From Sulfuriferula multivorans (lineage in GTDB: Bacteria; Pseudomonadota; Gammaproteobacteria; Burkholderiales; Sulfuriferulaceae): 64,000 bases of DNA. A program made the translations under genes and the position numbers. The stretch is from NCBI RefSeq assembly GCF_003851125.1, contig NZ_BGOW01000006.1:1-64000 (forward strand), given 5' to 3'. How positions within the stretch are numbered: the first letter of the stretch is position 1; the number at the start of each line of letters is the position of its first letter. A model generated the notes under the pieces. The model did not search any database. It worked only from the letters and a program-made list of their open reading frames with translations, and was not told the origin of the DNA. Below are positions 13,115 to 48,703 of this stretch, one piece after another.

Positions 13115-13318
13115 CCGGAGTTGCTTCGGTTTGCGTACCGCAGCAGATCCTGAAACTGAACAAATTTCGTCCTTGCGAATCGCCCCGGTTTCGCACCCGG
13201 AGTTTCCCACTTAACAACGTTACCCGGATTTGCTGGATCACTGCTCAGTGAAACAGGCCTTATTTTTGCTTATACCTGCCTGTACAAGCCGTTTGTCGCA
13301 AACGCTACAGGAGGATGA

Positions 13319-13589: not shown

Positions 13590-13672
13590 TGTTGTATTTG
13601 CGACAAAGCCCGACATTGCACCTGGCGCAGTTCCATGAATAGGCACGGACTTCCCCTGGGATGCGGCTTGCT
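13590..13672 (+). promoter_or_regulatory. NifA UAS and sigma54 promoter for the AAA+ block
   Basis: A NifA upstream site TGT-N10-ACA lies at 13590-13605, and a -24/-12 element TGGGATGCGGCTTGCT at 13657-13672 (consensus TGGCACGNNNNTTGCW; two mismatches, at the fourth and sixth bases). Their spacing (52 bp) resembles that of the nifB promoter in this window. Transcription would start near 13684 and read the 126-residue protein and the AAA+ ATPase. Confidence 0.65.
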
Positions 13673-13741
13673 CGAGATGCCGGGCTGCGCGTTTCGACGC
13701 CGCCGCACCACGCGCCGAAACAGGTTTCCGGGAGCTCGCTC

Positions 13742-14122
13742 ATGTTGAATGCATCGCTGCTATCGATTATCGAACAGGCGGGAGTTGCCGTGCTCACCCT
13801 GACCGAGGGGCTGGAACAGGATGAATTCCTCGCCTCGCGTCTTACCCGCGCGGAAACACTGCGCCAGGTAAAGATCATCAGCGGGAGCGCAGCCAGTCTG
13901 CCGCCACAGATGCAAACCATGCTCGCCGAAGTGGACTGGGCGGGGTGGCGCATCGTCGCGCGTCAACTCGGCGCCGACAAGGGCGCAGAACAGGAGGCGC
14001 TGTGGTTCGCCGTGAGTTCTCTGGTACCGGCCACGCTGATGTGGCTGCAGGTCTACCGTAAAGAGCAGCCGGAGATTTTCGAATGCAAGCCATTGGCTGA
14101 TGCGGGCGGAGCAAGAGCATGA
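13742..14122 (+). CDS. Unknown protein, first gene of NifA-type AAA+ block
   Basis: 126 residues starting at ATG 13742 after GGGAG. Predicted soluble and mostly helical: LLSIIEQAGVAVLTLTEGLEQDEFLASRLTR is split by short loops, and a Trp-rich stretch follows. I recognise no family. Its end overlaps the start of the AAA+ ATPase gene by 4 bp (ATGA), and a sigma54/NifA-type promoter lies about 70 bp upstream, so it should be made together with the ATPase during nitrogen fixation. It may be an adaptor for that ATPase (inference). Confidence 0.75.
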   Translation: MLNASLLSIIEQAGVAVLTLTEGLEQDEFLASRLTRAETLRQVKIISGSAASLPPQMQTMLAEVDWAGWRIVARQLGADKGAEQEALWFAVSSLVPATLMWLQVYRKEQPEIFECKPLADAGGARA

Positions 14123-15837
14123 ATCTGCAGATCGAGCGGCCTTATGTCGAGGCCATGATTACGGAATTCCCGCGCCTCGCGCCGCTTCAGGACCAGTTGC
14201 GCTTCGGCAACAAGGTCACGATGCCGTTCAACCAGCTCTCCGGCATCGAACTGGGTTTCCTCGGCGAGCTCTACCGCGAAGCCGGTCCTGGCATGCGCAC
14301 CCGCGCGGCGCAACTCGCCACGCTGCAACGGGCGTTCGATGGCCAGGGCACCCGCTTTGGTCCGGACGACGATCTGGAAATGCTGATGCCGGCGATTGCT
14401 TGCTACCTGGCGACGGATGCCCTGCGTGGCTGGCTGTTTCGGGTGAACGTATCGGACAAACCGCTGGCCTATGTGGTCACCCGTCTCGACTACATCGCGT
14501 CGTCCAACGACGAGACCGGCAAGGTGGTGCTGGAACTCAGGGCCAATGCCAAGGGCACGCTCGCCACAGCGACCTTCCGCATTTCCGCCACCGACATCGT
14601 CGGCAAGACGGTGGCGGAAATTTTCGCCGCCAAGGGCTACGTGCGCGAAAGCGACGAACTGATCAGCGCTTACGACGATAGCGTAGCGCGCTATTTCGAC
14701 TGGCGCGGCCAGTATGGCGCGCAGTTCTCCGCCCAGGGCACCGGTTTTTACGCCGAAGACCCGACCGCGACCCACCGCGACACCGACTGGTCGCGCAAGG
14801 ACGTGGTGGTGCTGTCCTCCGGCGGCGGTGTCACCCGGCTGGTGAACGACGAGAGTATCCTGAGTGCGCGCACCACCACGCTGGAAGCGACGGGGGATAT
14901 CCTCGGCCCGTATCTGCGCAAGGCGGCGAAGAGCAATCAATACAATGCAGAAACGGAAGTCGGCGAATCCCGGGCTGCGATGCCCAAGGGTCTGTTCACT
15001 CAACTGCCGATGCATCCCTACATCTTCATGTTCCACCTCGATCTGCACCACTACCTGTGGGTGCATGTGGACGACATCGCACCCTACGAATACCAGCCGG
15101 CATTGAAGCAGAAGCTGATCCTGCCGCCGGAGCAGACCGATCTCATCGACATCCTGACCGCCGAGATGGATGTGCTGATGGACGACATCGTGGCCGGCAA
15201 GTCCGGCGGCACCACCGTGCTGTGCGCCGGCCCGGCTGGCGTGGGCAAGACGCTGACCGCCGAAGTCTATTCGGAAATCATCCAGCGTCCCTTGTACCGC
15301 GTGCACTCCGGGCAACTGGGGCTGAACGTGGCCGCGATGGAGACCGCGCTCAAGGACGTGCTGACCCGGGCGCAGCGCTGGGGGGCGGTGATGCTGATCG
15401 ACGAAGCGGATGTCTACATCAAGCGCCGTGACGACAACATCGCCATGAACGCCGTGGTCGGCGTGTTCCTGCGCGTGCTGGAGTATTTCAACGGTCTGTT
15501 GTTCCTCACCACCAATCGGGTGGATGACATCGACGAGGCCATCGTCTCGCGCTGTATCGCCATGATCCGTTATTACCCGCCCGACAGTGAAGCGCGGCGC
15601 AGGATCTGGCAGGTGATGCTGGAGCAGTTCGCGCTGGAGATCGATGACGCACTGCTGGATGAACTGGTCGCGCTATTCCCCAGCGCCAGTGGCCGCGACA
15701 TCAAAGGGCTGGCCAAGCTGGCGGCCAAGTTTTGCAACCACAAGCAGGTCAAACCCAGTTCCGAGGTATTCAGGCGCTGCTCGATATTTCGCGGCATGGA
15801 ACTGGATCGGCCAGCGCAGCAGCCTTGTCCCGTATGA
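14119..15837 (+). CDS. AAA+ ATPase, unknown substrate, NifA-type promoter
   Basis: 572 residues. Walker A is GPAGVGKT at residues 371-378, and Walker B VMLIDEAD ends near 431; TTNRVDDIDEAIVSRC contains sensor 1 and the arginine-finger region, so the C-terminal third is a classical AAA module of the FtsH/CDC48 kind. The first ~330 residues match no domain I know. There is no membrane segment or protease motif, so it is probably a remodelling ATPase. The gene overlaps the 126-residue gene and precedes five small unknown genes. A role in nitrogenase or metallocluster assembly is inference from its promoter. Confidence 0.85.
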   Translation: MNLQIERPYVEAMITEFPRLAPLQDQLRFGNKVTMPFNQLSGIELGFLGELYREAGPGMRTRAAQLATLQRAFDGQGTRFGPDDDLEMLMPAIACYLATDALRGWLFRVNVSDKPLAYVVTRLDYIASSNDETGKVVLELRANAKGTLATATFRISATDIVGKTVAEIFAAKGYVRESDELISAYDDSVARYFDWRGQYGAQFSAQGTGFYAEDPTATHRDTDWSRKDVVVLSSGGGVTRLVNDESILSARTTTLEATGDILGPYLRKAAKSNQYNAETEVGESRAAMPKGLFTQLPMHPYIFMFHLDLHHYLWVHVDDIAPYEYQPALKQKLILPPEQTDLIDILTAEMDVLMDDIVAGKSGGTTVLCAGPAGVGKTLTAEVYSEIIQRPLYRVHSGQLGLNVAAMETALKDVLTRAQRWGAVMLIDEADVYIKRRDDNIAMNAVVGVFLRVLEYFNGLLFLTTNRVDDIDEAIVSRCIAMIRYYPPDSEARRRIWQVMLEQFALEIDDALLDELVALFPSASGRDIKGLAKLAAKFCNHKQVKPSSEVFRRCSIFRGMELDRPAQQPCPV

Positions 15838-15857
15838 ATCTGCAACAGGAGAAGCCC

Positions 15858-16151
15858 ATGCAAGCATGCATCACATTCGAAGGCGAACACGTCAACATGG
15901 CATCCCCGGACGAGATCGCCGCAGGCATCAAGGCGGCCAGCGTGGTGTTCTCACACCACAACGCCGACCCGCTGGCCTGCGCGGCGGCCAAGGAAAAGCT
16001 CGAGAAAGACGAGCCGCTGACCAGGGATGAAGCGCTGCTGTGCGTGATCTGGCAGACGGCGGAGGACAAAGCCTTTCGCGCCGTGACCTTGAACTGGATG
16101 GTGCGCGGGGATACCGACATCTGGCTCGCCGTGAGCCCCAGCGCGCAATGA
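15858..16151 (+). CDS. Small unknown protein of AAA+ block
   Basis: 97 residues from ATG 15858, preceded by AACAGGAGAAG. An in-frame upstream ATG (15834) would overlap the ATPase end but has no good ribosome site. Ala-rich helical protein; central segments ACAAAKEKLEKDEPLTRDEA and LCVIWQTAEDKAF. No recognised domain. It overlaps the next gene by 4 bp (ATGA), so the pair is co-translated. Confidence 0.7.
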   Translation: MQACITFEGEHVNMASPDEIAAGIKAASVVFSHHNADPLACAAAKEKLEKDEPLTRDEALLCVIWQTAEDKAFRAVTLNWMVRGDTDIWLAVSPSAQ

Positions 16152-16315
16152 CCGTCGAACAACTGATCATGGCACTGCAACAGATGCCCGGGCAGGCGGT
16201 GGTGCTGTTCGAAGGAGATGCCGGCTACTCGCTGGTCGGTGGCCTGAACATCGAAGAAAACGGTAATGGCATGCCGGACGAAGTAATTCTGTTTCCGTCG
16301 ATGGAAGACGATTAG
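16148..16315 (+). CDS. Small acidic protein of AAA+ block
   Basis: 55 residues, start ATG 16148 overlapping the preceding stop. Sequence TVEQLIMALQQMPGQAVVLF, then an acidic end (FPSMEDD). It resembles short proteins in which a helix is followed by a beta hairpin holding Val-Val-Leu-Phe strands. The overlap with the upstream gene and the acidic tail support a real gene; function unknown. Confidence 0.65.
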   Translation: MTVEQLIMALQQMPGQAVVLFEGDAGYSLVGGLNIEENGNGMPDEVILFPSMEDD

Positions 16316-16363
16316 GAACCTGTTCTACCCCGCGCATGCAACGCATCATAGGAGAACCATATT

Positions 16364-16672
16364 ATGGGAACTTACATCAAGACCACCGAGGATGGACGCA
16401 GGTTGCAAGTCATCGGCCGCGCTGTCTATCTGGACGGGGTGAAAGAAGCCGAGTGGCTGCTTGCGATTGTCCAGCACCCCAACTGGAAAGCCATCCTCGA
16501 AGCGGTGCCCAATGCCACCCATCTGGCCGGGCGCGTCCCGCTCACCTGGGAAGAGGCGCTCGTCGCGCAGGCTGCACTGAACGAAGCGCGCGACGCGTAT
16601 GAGTCCAGCCCGACCGGCATTGCCGAGCGCATGCGCGTTTCGATCAATGTTGTTACCTCGATCCGCGACTGA
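16364..16672 (+). CDS. Unknown small protein
   Basis: 102 residues, ATG 16364 with TAGGAGAACC upstream. It begins with a strand-rich part (YIKTTEDGRRLQVIGRAVYLDG), then a helical stretch with THLAGRVPLTWEEALVAQ. No recognised family. It follows the 55-residue gene by 48 bp and precedes another small gene by 9 bp, all in the same direction, so it is probably part of the AAA+ transcription unit. Confidence 0.68.
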   Translation: MGTYIKTTEDGRRLQVIGRAVYLDGVKEAEWLLAIVQHPNWKAILEAVPNATHLAGRVPLTWEEALVAQAALNEARDAYESSPTGIAERMRVSINVVTSIRD

Positions 16673-16681
16673 GCCGCACGT

Positions 16682-16996
16682 ATGATCTACATCGTTGAAA
16701 TTCCCCACCAGAAGCGCCCGCATGCGTGGTTCGCATTCAGCCGTGAGGACTTCGTGCTCAAGGTGCGTGCGACCCATGGGTCGAAAGTGGATCAGGCTGG
16801 AGCGGCAAATGAATTCGATGCGTGCGTCGCTGCGCTTGCGCACGATCTCAAGGATTATCGCGTACACCTCAGCGATGAGCTGGCCATCGGCGCGCTGCAG
16901 AGCGATCCGCTGTACGACAAGTACGACGGGTTCTACGCGCACATGGCGTTGCGCGAGCAACTGGTTGCGATGGACGCCCTGGAGGACGATTTGTAA
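16682..16996 (+). CDS. Unknown small acidic protein
   Basis: 104 residues. It opens MIYIVEIPHQKRPHAWFAF with an aromatic-rich strand, then helices, and ends in acidic DALEDDL. No known domain. It sits 9 bp after the previous small gene. There is no clear Shine-Dalgarno, so translational coupling is likely. Last of the five small unknown genes between the ATPase and the amine oxidase. Confidence 0.67.
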   Translation: MIYIVEIPHQKRPHAWFAFSREDFVLKVRATHGSKVDQAGAANEFDACVAALAHDLKDYRVHLSDELAIGALQSDPLYDKYDGFYAHMALREQLVAMDALEDDL

Positions 16997-18616: not shown

Positions 18617-19231
18617 ATGAAACTCTACATGACCCCCGGCTCGTGTTCCACCGGCATCCACATCCTGCTGGAAGAGCTCGATCTGGCTTTCGAGGCCTAT
18701 ATCGTGAACCTGCCGACAGGCGACCACACCAGGCCCGATTACCTCGCGATCAACCCGAAGTCCAGCATCCCGACGCTGGTGCGCGACGATGGTTCCGTGC
18801 TGACCGAGTTTCAGGCGATAGCTTACTGGCTGGCACGCAGCCATCCCAGGGCCAGGCTGCTGCCGGGTGATGCGGACGGCGATGCGCGCGTGATCGAGGC
18901 GATGGATTACGTCGTCGGCACCCTTCATGGCCAGTGATTCGCCCGTATTTTTATCACGGACACGTTTACGCCGAACGAAGCCGACCACGAAGCGGTGAGG
19001 GCGCGCGGCCGCGAAATCGTCGAGCGGGGATTCGCGCTGATGAACGATGCACTGGCTGGCAAGGAATATGTCGTCGGCAGTTTTTCCATTGCCGATGCGG
19101 CGCTGTTTTACGTGGAATTCTGGGCGGACAAACTGGCCATTGACCTGCCCGAGCACTGCCGCGCGCATTACCAGCGCATGCTGGCGCGTCCGGTGGTGCA
19201 GCGGGTGCTGCGGGAAGAGGGGTATCGCTGA
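18617..19231 (+). pseudogene. Glutathione S-transferase interrupted by an in-frame TGA
   Basis: The N-terminal thioredoxin domain (KLYMTPGSCSTGIHILLEE, then NPKSSIPTLV) is open to codon 106, where TGA (18935-18937) interrupts DYVVGTLHGQ. The same frame continues FARIFITDTFTP and through a full GST helical domain (GSFSIADAALFYVEFWADKL) to 19231. No frameshift is needed: a single G-to-T change of GGA would make this stop. Total length (~204 codons) is right for a GST. It is either a recent nonsense mutation or a base error. Selenocysteine is unlikely, as no SECIS-like hairpin was noticed. Confidence 0.8.
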
Positions 19232-25615: not shown

Positions 25616-27706
25616 ATGCCCGACCCTATTCCTATGACCTCTGTGCTTACCACTGGTGGCGGCGATGCCGTTCTGGCGTACCTGAAAGCCGCTCGAGAAC
25701 ACCACACACAAGCCAAAATCGCCGATTTCCTAAAGACCACTCCCCGTACGATTCGTCGCTGGGAAGCCCGCCAGTCCGTGCCACCGCCCTACGTCATCCA
25801 CGCCCTGCAACAGCTTTTGCCGCTCGATCTACCTTTCGAGGGGGAAGCCGCGTTCAGCTTTATCGATCTATTCGCAGGCATCGGCGGTATCCGCCGTGCA
25901 TTTGAGGCCGTCGGCGGGCGTTGCGTCTTCACCAGCGAATGGGACAGCTACGCCCAGAAAACCTACGCCGAGAATTTTCGCGACGGTCACGCCATCAATG
26001 GCGACATCACACAGGTTCAGGCCGCCAGCATTCCCGACCACGACGTTCTGCTGGCAGGTTTCCCATGCCAGCCGTTTTCCATCGCCGGAGTGTCAAAAAA
26101 GAACGCATTAGGCAAAGCCCATGGCTTTGCCTGCGAAACGCAGGGCACGCTGTTTTTCGATGTCGCCCGAGTCATTGCGGAAAAGCGCCCGCGCGCCTTC
26201 CTGCTGGAAAATGTCAAAAACCTGACCTCGCATGACAAAGGCCGCACCTTCGCCGTCATCAAACGCACCCTCAGCGAAGAACTCGGTTACCACATCCACA
26301 CCCGCGTTATCGACGGCGCACACTTTGTTCCCCAGCACCGCGAGCGCATCCTCATCGTCGGCTTTCGCGAACCTGTCGCGTTCGACTTTGACGCATTGCC
26401 CATGCCGCCCAAGGGTCAGCACACGCTGAAGGAAGTTTTGCATCGTACCGACGGCGCCGAGCCGCACCTGCCTTGGGATGAAGACCGCTTCTTCGACCAC
26501 GCCAACAACAAGGTGCAGGATAAATACACCCTCACCGACAACCTCTGGCGCTACCTGCAAAACTACGCCGAAAAACATCGCGCCAAGGGCAACGGCTTCG
26601 GGTTCGGTCTTGTCACGAAAGACAGCGTCACTCGCACCCTTTCCGCCCGCTATTACAAGGACGGCTCGGAGATTCTGGTGTATCAAGGAGAAGGCATAAA
26701 TCCGCGCCGATTAACGCCAAGAGAGTGTGCAAGGCTAATGGGTTTCCCCGATACGTTCAGGATTCCGGTGTCGGATACGCGGGCTTATCAGCTGTTTGCG
26801 GATGCGGCGGTTGTTCCGATGATCGAATCAGTCGCTAAACTCATGGCACCGCTAATTACTGTCGAGGAGCCGGTGGCTTCGGCCAATCTGGCCGCGCCGC
26901 CCAACATCATGAGTTCAAATCGCTGGACCAAAGAACAGTTGAAACTCGCGTTCAATCTGTATTGCCAACTGCCATTCGGCAAGCTGCATAGTCGGAATGC
27001 TGAAATTATCGAACTTGCCGCGCTCATCGGTCGCACATCCTCCGCTGTCGCAATGAAATTGGTCAACTTCGCCAGCCTTGACCCCGCTATCACCAGCACA
27101 GGCAGAAGCGAGCTGGGCAATGCCTCTTCGCTGGATCGTGAAGTGTGGGAGGAGTTTCATGCGGACTGGGAGCGGCTCGCCGTGGAATGTGCGCTACTTA
27201 ACGAGCAGCTACGCGCGGGACGCGCTGAACCAGTTAGCGACACAGAGCCAGACGAATCTTTCGATCTAAACGACTTCAGTGGGGAAACCAGACAGGTTCT
27301 AACTGAGCAACGAATCAAACAAAGCTTCTTCCGCCGCGCCGTCCTTGCCAGCTATCGCGGCAAATGCTGCATGTCAGGTCTGTCTGACTCGCGCTTGCTG
27401 ATTGCCAGCCATATCGTTCCATGGAGCAAAGACAAGGCCAACCGGCTCAATCCGAGCAATGGCTTATGTCTCTCGGCACTGCATGACAAGGCATTCGACA
27501 AAGGACTTATCACGCTGACTGACGATTTCAAAATCCTTGTCTCGGAAGATATCAAACGCGGCAAAGAAGCTTTTATCCAAGCGGTGATTCTGCCGCTCGA
27601 TGGTCGCCCGATTGACCCGCCAGAACGTTTTATGCCTCAACCAGAATTCGTTGCATGGCACAGAAACAAGCTGTTCGTGGACAACAAGAACCCGCACCAA
27701 CGGTGA
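25616..27706 (+). CDS. DNA C5-cytosine methyltransferase fused to HNH endonuclease
   Basis: 696 residues. About 1-70: HTH-like segment (QAKIADFLKTTPRTIRRWEA). About 80-420: Dcm-type methyltransferase with FIDLFAGIGGIRRAF (SAM), GFPCQPFSIAG (catalytic Cys), FLLENVKNL and QHRERILIVGFR, ending RLTPRECARLMGFP. From about 430: RWTKEQLKLAFNLYCQLPFG, then a C-terminal HNH nuclease with SHIVPWSKDK, NPSNGLCLSALHDKAFD. The two are usually separate genes; here one frame joins them, with an internal Met at 26909 where the nuclease would normally start. It could methylate and cut the same site. Recognition sequence unknown; EcoRII/Dcm-like CCWGG is plausible from the neighbour. Confidence 0.85.
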   Translation: MPDPIPMTSVLTTGGGDAVLAYLKAAREHHTQAKIADFLKTTPRTIRRWEARQSVPPPYVIHALQQLLPLDLPFEGEAAFSFIDLFAGIGGIRRAFEAVGGRCVFTSEWDSYAQKTYAENFRDGHAINGDITQVQAASIPDHDVLLAGFPCQPFSIAGVSKKNALGKAHGFACETQGTLFFDVARVIAEKRPRAFLLENVKNLTSHDKGRTFAVIKRTLSEELGYHIHTRVIDGAHFVPQHRERILIVGFREPVAFDFDALPMPPKGQHTLKEVLHRTDGAEPHLPWDEDRFFDHANNKVQDKYTLTDNLWRYLQNYAEKHRAKGNGFGFGLVTKDSVTRTLSARYYKDGSEILVYQGEGINPRRLTPRECARLMGFPDTFRIPVSDTRAYQLFADAAVVPMIESVAKLMAPLITVEEPVASANLAAPPNIMSSNRWTKEQLKLAFNLYCQLPFGKLHSRNAEIIELAALIGRTSSAVAMKLVNFASLDPAITSTGRSELGNASSLDREVWEEFHADWERLAVECALLNEQLRAGRAEPVSDTEPDESFDLNDFSGETRQVLTEQRIKQSFFRRAVLASYRGKCCMSGLSDSRLLIASHIVPWSKDKANRLNPSNGLCLSALHDKAFDKGLITLTDDFKILVSEDIKRGKEAFIQAVILPLDGRPIDPPERFMPQPEFVAWHRNKLFVDNKNPHQR

Positions 27707-46982: not shown

Positions 46983-47059
46983 TAACTAAATATTAAAGAT
47001 TATGGTTGGATCTGCTTTCGTACTTGCAAGTTAACGAAGGGTTCAATGAGGTTAGAGAT

Positions 47060-48703
47060 ATGGGCGCGTTAACAGGGCATCAGGCGGGCATCGAGCTCAC
47101 TACTATCTATGAAATCAGCAAGATACTGAGCTCATCCCTTGACCTGAACAAGACGGCGCGGGAAGTGCTTGGCATGCTTTCCTCACATCTCAGGATGCGG
47201 CGGGGCATGGTCAGTTTGGTGCAGCCGTCCGGCGATCTGCATGTTGTTGAGGCAACCGGGATGTCAGCCGAGGCGGCCCGGCGTGGCCGCTTCCGCAGGG
47301 GCGAGGGCATCACCGGCAAGATTCTGGCAACCGGCGTGCCCATGGTGGTGCCGAATGTGGCGAAGGAGCCGCTTTTCCTGAATCGAACCGAGTCGCGCAG
47401 CCTGGCGGAAGGGCGCGTCGTTGCCTTCATCGGCGTGCCGATCAAGGTCGGACGGGAAACCGTTGGCGTATTGAGTGTCGACCGCGAAATGGACGGCGAG
47501 CCGGGTAACTTCGAGGCCGATGTACGTTTTCTGGCCATGGTGGCGAATCTTATCGGCCAGACCACCCGCTTGCACAACAACGTGGCAGCCGAGCGCGAGG
47601 AGTTGATGCAGCGCCAGTATCGCCTGCAGAAAGAATTACAGGGCAAGTACAGCCTGGACAACGTCATCGGCCACAGCAAGCGCATGCAGGATGTGTTCGC
47701 CGAAGTGCACCAGGCCGCGCCAGGCAGGTCGACCGTGCTGCTGCGCGGCGAAAGCGGTACCGGCAAGGAAGTCATCGCGCGCTCGATTCACTATCTGAGT
47801 CCGCGCAAGCTCGCCCCGTTCATCAAGGTGAACTGTGCCGCGCTGTCCGAAACGCTACTCGAGTCCGAATTGTTCGGCCACGAAAAGGGCTCGTTCACCG
47901 GAGCGACCCAGGAACGCAAAGGCCGCTTTGAAATGGCGCAGGGCGGCACGCTGTTTCTGGATGAGATCGGAGAGATTTCGCCGTTGTTTCAAACCAAGTT
48001 GCTGCGCGTGCTGCAGGAGCGGGAATTCGAGCGTGTGGGCGGCAACAAGTCGATCAAGGTGGACGTGCGCCTGATCGCAGCCACCAACCGCAATATGGAA
48101 GAAGATGTGGCCAAGGGCACATTCCGCGCCGACCTCTACTACCGCATCAACGTGGTGAGCATCTTCCTTTCCCCCCTGCGCGAGCGACGCGAAGATATTC
48201 CGCCACTCATCGAGCATTTCCTGGACAAGTTCAACAAGGAAAACGAACGCAAGATTTCCATTTCACCAGCAGCGCTGGCGGTGATGCTCAAGTGCAACTG
48301 GCCCGGCAATGTGCGCGAGCTGGAGAATTGCGTCGAGCGCACCGCGACGATGACACGGAAAAATATGATTCAGGAGCTGGATTTGCCGTGTCAGCAGAAC
48401 AAGTGCTTCTCGCAAGTGTTGCAGCACTATGGCCAGGCCCAGCTGGCGATTCCGATTCCGGTTGTGTCTGCCCCGATTGTGTCCGTGTCTTCCGGTGCGA
48501 GTATGCCGGAAGTTTCCGGCAGCAGTTTCGGCGAGGCGACTGCCGGGGAGGATCCTGCCTTCATGACCGAGCGTGAGCGTCTGGTATGGGCCATGGAACA
48601 GTGCGGATGGGTGCAGGCGAAAGCCGCGCGTCTGCTGAATCTGACGCCGCGCCAGATCGGGTATGCGCTGTCGAGATACAACATCGAAGTCAAACGTCTT
48701 TAA
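47060..48703 (+). CDS. nifA: Nitrogen-fixation activator NifA, O2-sensitive type
   Basis: 547 residues from ATG 47060 (GAGG 8 bp upstream); an in-frame TTG at 47006 would add 18. GAF domain about 15-175, sigma54-activating AAA+ domain with [17 protein letters not shown] (Walker A), [16 protein letters not shown] (GSFTGA instead of GAFTGA) and [11 protein letters not shown]. Fis-type HTH at the end: [20 protein letters not shown]. Cys412-x11-Cys424 and Cys444-x4-Cys449 between AAA+ and HTH are the motif of O2-sensitive NifA (rhizobia, Herbaspirillum). No nifL is present. Confidence 0.95.

Follow-up and report, generated by a model that had tools for sequence, protein, structure and literature searches.

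A candidate nitrogen-fixation AAA+ ATPase under putative NifA/sigma54 control in Sulfuriferula multivorans and other proteobacterial diazotrophs

The ATPase locus

The DNA analysed here is a stretch of 64,000 nucleotides of Sulfuriferula multivorans (positions 1-64,000 of NZ_BGOW01000006.1, assembly GCF_003851125.1), referred to below as the window, in which a gene for an AAA+ ATPase of 572 amino acids (AAA) lies among genes for five small proteins, named P126, P96, P55, P102 and P104. The possibility that this ATPase serves nitrogen fixation is the subject of this report. The window is part of a contig of 79.6 kb (C6) in a genome of 3.6 Mb, and it encodes NifA (47006-48703). Further genes in the window, which served as queries, are taken by us from position and homology to be nifS, nifU, nifV, nifW, nifB and nifZ. 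Beyond the window, the same contig carries nifD (67498-68898) and a nifE-type gene at 71145. Other loci and genomes are designated by L or G and a number.

The features of the array and its promoter region are collected in Table 1. The open reading frames (ORFs) listed in the original prediction are all present, as are the 4-base overlaps between P126 and AAA and between P96 and P55. None of the five small proteins gave a Pfam or NCBIfam match above cut-off. The gene for an FmdB-type protein in front and that for a flavin oxidase behind are members of the same array as AAA. Homologues of the FmdB-type protein also adjoin AAA or nif genes in L041, L075, L193 and L195, and a flavin oxidase is found near AAA in several lineages (cluster c4, 12 locus entries with the window included).

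Table 1. Promoter elements and genes of the ATPase array in the window (UAS, upstream activating sequence; aa, amino acids)
Feature	Position	Strand	Remarks
sigma54 -24/-12-like element AGGCCTTATTTTTGCT	13255..13270	+	upstream of the FmdB-type gene
NifA-type site TGTCGCAAACGCTACA	13294..13309	+	within the FmdB-type leader; begins 39 bp after the start of the 13255 element
FmdB-type zinc-ribbon protein, 77 aa	13319..13552	+	TIGR02605 E 1.8e-14, PF09723 E 1.5e-12
NifA UAS TGTTGTATTTGCGACA, TGT-N10-ACA	13590..13605	+	UAS here in 11/11 aligned loci
-24/-12 element of the original prediction TGGGATGCGGCTTGCT, GG-N10-GC	13657..13672	+	absent in 4/11 loci (L034-L037)
P126, 126 aa	13742..14122	+	associated with AAA and nif, separable from AAA
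AAA+ ATPase (AAA), 572 aa	14119..15837	+	N-terminal region ~1-290; AAA module, Pfam match 367-480
P96, 96 aa	15861..16151	+	ORF; no Pfam match above cut-off
P55, 55 aa	16148..16315	+	homologues near nifH in L041, L193, L194, L195
P102, 102 aa	16364..16672	+	homologues adjoin nifE in L041, L193-L196
P104, 104 aa	16682..16996	+	homologue immediately upstream of AAA in Sulfuriferula-type loci
Flavin amine-oxidase-like protein, 526 aa	17031..18611	+	PF01593 E 4.6e-33

The ATPase and its clade

The AAA family PF00004 was matched over residues 367-480 with 58.7 bits, above the curated cut-off of 21.2, and at E<=0.05 in all 52 members of an alignment (A1) whose 51 other sequences are 65-94% identical to the window AAA. 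Outside residues 367-480 no Pfam match rose above cut-off, and the N-terminal ~290 residues gave no Pfam match of note and a single PDB match with an E-value of 1.7. Nine residues were invariant across the 52 sequences, which we take to be those of Walker A (G374, G376, K377, T378) and Walker B (D428, E429) and the sensor and arginine residues (N466, R478, R526). The 60 of 158 PDB matches that were listed are, over the AAA part, all to classical AAA proteins (VCP-like, Rix7, Cdc48 and proteasomal). Judged by its sequence, the window protein is a classical AAA+ ATPase with a conserved N-terminal region of its own, in line with the unique N-terminal domain that had been claimed for it. It shares the classical AAA module with Cdc48/VCP, Rix7 and the proteasome-activating nucleotidase, its best PDB matches, but has one AAA module joined to its own N-terminal region. 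In the alignment, the VCP-like chain has WVG where the window ATPase has no aromatic residue, a difference that may be meaningful.

In a tree of 84 rows, including some near-copies or duplicates, 76 nif-type rows fell on one side of a branch with a support of 100/99 and a length of 3.97. The 8 paralogues outside this nif-type clade all come from genomes without a nifD match. Compared with the window AAA, two of the paralogues from nif-less genomes (L011, L111) are missing a stretch of some 60 residues around 220-283 that the nif clade keeps.

MoxR, CbbQ and NorQ are AAA+ proteins that serve metalloenzymes, and AAA_3 or AAA_5 are the Pfam marks of the MoxR type. The window AAA scored 14.2 bits for AAA_5, below the cut-off of 22, and AAA_3 was not listed; it matches PF00004 instead. 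A VWA-type partner in the style of these systems was not found among the AAA neighbours scanned, which were only part of the neighbours. A likeness to CbbX, the Rubisco activase, would exist if AAA used ATP to reactivate a metabolic enzyme. No CbbX model, which we assume the library to contain, appeared among the NCBIfam matches at E<=0.1, and for the N-terminal region of AAA there was no notable match in Pfam or the PDB.

Co-occurrence with nif genes

Among 120 relatives (the genome of the window included) an orthologue was found in 9, at 71-100% identity and partial in G009, and 8 of these, all but G001, belong to the 22 nifD-positive genomes. In the nifD-positive G008, AAA is reduced to two fragments (C11, ~226174-226481; L012), and neighbours of the P104 and flavin-oxidase type remain. 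Across the class (369 genomes, own included) full-length AAA was found in 8 genomes, all of them among the 32 with nifD, and in none of the 337 nifD-less ones; one further genome, G328, carries a paralogue in which no more than the AAA half was matched. Of the 199 genomes in the family of G538, 90 have nifD; an orthologue was found in 20 (57-79% identity, two partial), of which 19 have nifD, and five more genomes carry a paralogue only, with nifD in 0/5. In the family of G407, AAA is present in 2/20 genomes. The original prediction had set co-occurrence with nif beforehand as a test by which it might fall, and AAA tracks nifD in all three larger samples, with Fisher p values of 1.5e-8 (class), 1.5e-5 (relatives) and 2.3e-6 (family of G538) in tests that left out the own genome or the chosen centre and treated genomes as independent despite their kinship.

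One genome per species was scanned with a pattern-based search, which found 73 AAA loci in 70 genomes of alpha-, beta-, gamma- and zetaproteobacteria. Of these genomes, 63/70 gave a nifD-family match at E<=1e-50 and 51/70 a match over the nifD cut-off; a few of the matches below that cut-off may be nifE only. Each of the five genomes without nifD in the first batch has NifA above cut-off, so that 68/70 show nif.

NifA- and sigma54-type promoter elements

The GG-N10-GC of the element at 13255 is kept in 11/11 aligned Thiobacillus-type loci (the window and G001 counted in), and in L040 and L007 it lies directly before AAA. In the same 13 loci a TGT-N10-ACA follows 39-40 bp downstream, an unusual layout in that the NifA-type site at 13294 lies downstream of, and not before, its sigma54 element. 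The UAS TGTTGTATTTGCGACA at 13590 is identical in 14/16 bases to the nifH UAS TGTCGTATTTGCAACA at 66144 of the same contig. By itself TGT-N10-ACA is uninformative, with 21 occurrences on the + strand of the 79.6-kb contig vs ~19 expected. Four promoters on the contig (before nifV, nifB and nifH, and at 65956) read TGGCACGNNNNTTGCT, with TGT-N10-ACA 71-115 bp upstream. The UAS and -24/-12 element that had been proposed ahead of P126 both exist, and the UAS is conserved throughout the aligned loci; the element at 13657, however, is less conserved than that at 13255. Loci L034-L037 have lost the former, whereas the latter is kept throughout; it is the better candidate and probably the real promoter, with a transcription unit that would start with the FmdB-type gene.

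Pairs of a UAS and a sigma54 element within 600 bp before AAA were found in 27/91 loci, as compared with 32/786 other genes of the same loci, nif genes included, and 68/4200 random 600-mers, the sigma54 elements being scored by a general consensus. The 91 loci are not independent, as L041 and L129, and L085 and L139, come from the same genomes; no pair was found in any of these. The contexts of the pairs differ and include loci of the Azonexaceae/Rhodocyclaceae type, L071, L074 and L076, the zetaproteobacterium L084, Methylobacter L099 and the Azoarcus-type L134 and L136. In six Methylococcaceae-type loci (L065, L066, L069, L070, L073, L088) tandem UAS and TGGCAAGTGTTTTGCT stand before a gene for 189 amino acids that precedes AAA, and in four Methylocystis-type loci (L051, L054, L056, L057) TGT-N10-ACA lies ~695 bp upstream of AAA with GG-N10-GC 54 bp further on. 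The motifs of a NifA regulon are thus present at the window site and enriched before AAA, but lacking in most alphaproteobacterial loci.

In a study of NifA in Azoarcus sp. BH72, eight genes were reported to be expressed under NifA regulation and to have sites for both RpoN and NifA; one of the eight is a 'conserved hypothetical ATPase (azo3791)' (PMC3916325). In the parts of the article available to us, azo3791 is only named, within a transcriptome study, and neither function nor family is given (PMC3916325). Of 12 primers taken from that article, seven (for azo3246, azo3368, azo3471 and azo0954) match genome G597 with 0-1 mismatch and in the expected order. Of the five primers without a match in the G597 stretches, azo3155f, azo0585f, azo0585r and azo1077f were expected to lie outside them and azo3471r inside; the printed sequences of azo3471r and of the azo0805 reverse primer are identical (PMC3916325). 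From the primer matches G597 was taken as a near relative of BH72. The AAA gene of G597 (4238203-4239897), which is preceded by a UAS and a sigma54 element, falls at about the position of azo3787 when ~1081 bp are allowed per gene, and among the ORFs of at least 200 amino acids listed over 47 kb a Walker A motif occurs only in AAA and in one ABC-type protein. Because of this position, and because AAA is the sole non-ABC ORF with a Walker A motif, azo3791 is very probably the orthologue of the window AAA, orthology being drawn from position. The NifA-dependent transcription was reported for azo3791 of BH72 and not for the window gene (PMC3916325). Together with the motif enrichment, a published NifA regulon that very probably contains the orthologue upholds the NifA/sigma54 link of the original prediction. 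Its description of the system as undescribed holds for function, as far as the literature searched shows, but it is very probable that the published NifA regulon already includes the gene, under the name of an ATPase.

Gene neighbourhoods

A nif or fix gene was found near AAA in 12/33 loci with at least 18 kb of sequence and in 22/73 of all loci, one of the 22 (L064) resting on a weak nifV match. In L075, nifH (a fragment), nifD, nifK and AAA follow one another on one strand with a gap of 97 bp between nifK and AAA. In L041, L193, L194 and L195, AAA has nifHDK on one side and nifENX on the other, with a receiver-domain protein and a flavodoxin in its company; here homologues of P102 adjoin nifE, and those of P126 and P55 lie near nifH. 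The small proteins of the window are nif-cluster genes that travel, and they look like other nif accessory genes and not like obligate partners of the ATPase. In 80 chosen genomes, P126 was found at E<=1e-40 in 14/36 genomes with AAA, 4/36 with nifD and no AAA, and 0/8 with neither; at E<=0.001 the counts were 28/36, 13/36 and 1/8. P126 is therefore associated with AAA but neither sufficient nor needed. Several AAA genes have a promoter of their own and no co-directional neighbour. With P126 and AAA occurring apart and many AAA genes standing alone, the fixed module that had been proposed was rejected.

In a comparison of nif stretches from 25 genomes with AAA and 21 without, a ferredoxin that we take to be FeS protein II-like occurred in 11/25 and 8/21, and a special tie to it was rejected. 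The stretches compared were short. For some genomes the set with AAA took in the AAA locus as well, and G008, which has AAA fragments, was counted among the 21; the counts for flavodoxin (8/25 vs 0/21) and for P126 and P55 (each 4/25 vs 0/21) are biased by this sampling and were not used. A SIR2-like protein (SIR2_2; L065:7838-8674) and its homologues are found beside nifH, near nifHDK, in many genomes. It was present in 14/25 stretches with AAA vs 15/21 without at any identity, and in 13/25 vs 7/21 at an identity of at least 50%, and is possibly another unnamed nif gene.

Proposed role

We propose, as a reading that we hold to be about evenly balanced between true and false, that AAA is a remodeling ATPase of the AAA+ type which in proteobacterial diazotrophs is specific to nitrogen fixation, stands under NifA/sigma54 control and acts on a nitrogenase component or an assembly intermediate. 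Its basis, as read from the sequences, is an AAA module whose active site is invariant, a separate clade and co-occurrence with nif. In addition, many beta-, gamma- and zetaproteobacterial loci have promoter motifs of the nif type, and about one third of loci are linked to nif. A remodeler of nitrogenase or its assembly intermediates was favoured because of the AAA module, the N-terminal region of its own, the NifA-type promoters and the linkage to structural genes. Under NifA/sigma54 control the ATPase would be made together with the nitrogen-fixation genes and, as expected of a classical AAA+ protein, would assemble as a ring. A client could then be bound through the N-terminal region and pulled apart or reshaped at the cost of ATP, so that active enzyme might be restored or formed faster. 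This client would be a component of nitrogenase or an intermediate of its assembly, the likeliest being NifDK, alone or in complex with NifH or a cofactor carrier.

More tentatively, AAA could be a dedicated 'nitrogenase activase': a ring, driven by ATP, by which nitrogenase (NifDK or complexes of it) is rescued or finished. Such a reading is possible, though we would not call it likely. If true, it would be for N2 fixation the counterpart of what Rubisco activase is for CO2 fixation, and the nif toolbox would gain a class of factor that it has lacked. It could also shed light on how certain diazotrophs that live aerobically or microaerobically, such as methanotrophs, Thiobacillus, Derxia and relatives of Azoarcus, keep or regain activity, and would offer a candidate part for the transfer of nitrogenase to other hosts. 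In the literature searched (open-licence papers of PubMed Central) no remodeling ATPase dedicated to nitrogenase was found, and the AAA ATPases met in the available passages of nif papers were transposition ATPases.

Opposing evidence and alternative explanations

Several findings weigh against a role in nitrogenase function or against a strict tie to nitrogen fixation. No nif or fix gene was present in the sequence of 21 of the 33 loci with at least 18 kb, and in most alphaproteobacterial loci (for example L045-L050) TGT-N10-ACA was not found in up to 3 kb scanned upstream. Furthermore, AAA is absent in most genomes that have nif (14/22 relatives, 24/32 of the class and 71/90 in the family of G538); it is therefore not needed for nitrogenase in general, and its patchy spread among diazotrophs suggests a condition-dependent aid (for instance rescue from oxygen damage or from stuck complexes) and not an essential assembly factor. 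Hydrogenase-like genes, which we presume to be of the NiFe (HupSL-like) kind, lie ~2-5 kb from AAA in L099 and in the Azoarcus-type G597 and G656. The confinement to nif genomes is near-complete, with G001, G659, G547 and G554 as exceptions: no nifD match was found in G547 and G554, where NifA was not searched for, nor in G659, where nifA was not searched for either. In the complete genome of G001, AAA is intact (96% identity) and has its UAS, and neither nifD nor nifA gave a match. About 12 kb of the G001 array are in synteny with the window, and 76 kb around its AAA gave no match to the window's nif genes. A parsimony count of silent and replacement codon changes in AAA, for which L031 served as outgroup, gave 28/15 on the G001 branch vs 25/4 on the window branch, and the excess of replacements in G001 is not significant for AAA alone (p 0.057 with the window branch counted as 26/4). 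The corresponding counts were 10/31 vs 7/6 for the flavin oxidase (p 0.08) and 11/3 vs 10/3 for SelO, and the other small genes have too few codon changes to tell. AAA and the flavin oxidase pooled gave a p of 0.001 and three control genes 0.79, the pooling having been chosen after the data were seen. The changes in G001 fit a loosening of constraint once nif was gone, and are no proof of it.

An intact AAA in the nif-less G001, and co-occurrence tests that ignore kinship, would suit a general stress or housekeeping AAA+ protein whose link to nif is shared ancestry only. We consider this distinctly improbable, given that full-length AAA is lacking in all 337 nifD-less genomes sampled from the class, that amino-acid changes rise in G001 and that nif-type promoter motifs occur in different contexts. 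A protein of the nif regulon that serves a support system (uptake hydrogenase, electron delivery by flavodoxin or flavin oxidase, oxygen protection), and not nitrogenase itself, is a more serious contender, albeit an unlikely one. The hydrogenase-like genes mentioned above point in this direction, as do the flavodoxin that adjoins AAA in L041 and L193-L196 and the flavin oxidase of other lineages; yet such hydrogenase-like genes were seen at 3 loci only, the presumed FeS protein II-like ferredoxin is about equally common with and without AAA, and the neighbours of AAA vary among lineages, those that recur in distant loci being mostly nif genes. It is also conceivable that the client is a regulator, the ATPase remodeling NifL/NifA, PII or a modifying enzyme and so adjusting nif expression or switch-off. 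A patchy distribution fits regulation, and a receiver-domain protein adjoins AAA in L041 and L193-L196, but no NifA homologue of at least 45% identity was found in the 73 loci, where nifL, draTG and glnK were not searched for, and we judge a regulatory client improbable. Over its AAA part, the nearest named family of the window ATPase is IetA/IteA (PADLOC IetA, E 2.7e-14 over 329-539; NCBIfam IteA, E 7.1e-11 over 332-557), which might suggest an anti-phage ATPase of the IetA type that sits by chance in nif islands. The match is confined to the AAA half and the IteA score of 41.9 bits lies far below the cut-off of 510; no PADLOC match, and with it no protease partner of the IetA type, was obtained for the five small proteins, and the flavin protein matched a desaturase model only. 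The anti-phage reading was rejected on these scores and, with a distribution that follows nifD and promoters of the nif type, we regard it as scarcely credible. A remodeling ATPase acting on nitrogenase or its assembly intermediates remains the reading that we prefer.

Other features of the window

Two further observations concern genes behind the array. At 18617-19231 (+) lies a presumably glutathione-transferase-like gene from a cluster with 26 locus entries, which an in-frame stop interrupts after 106 codons; its remainder follows in the same frame. At 25616-27706 (+) a single ORF combines a cytosine-5 DNA methyltransferase (~61-415) with an HNH/phosphorothioate-type restriction domain (~427-691).

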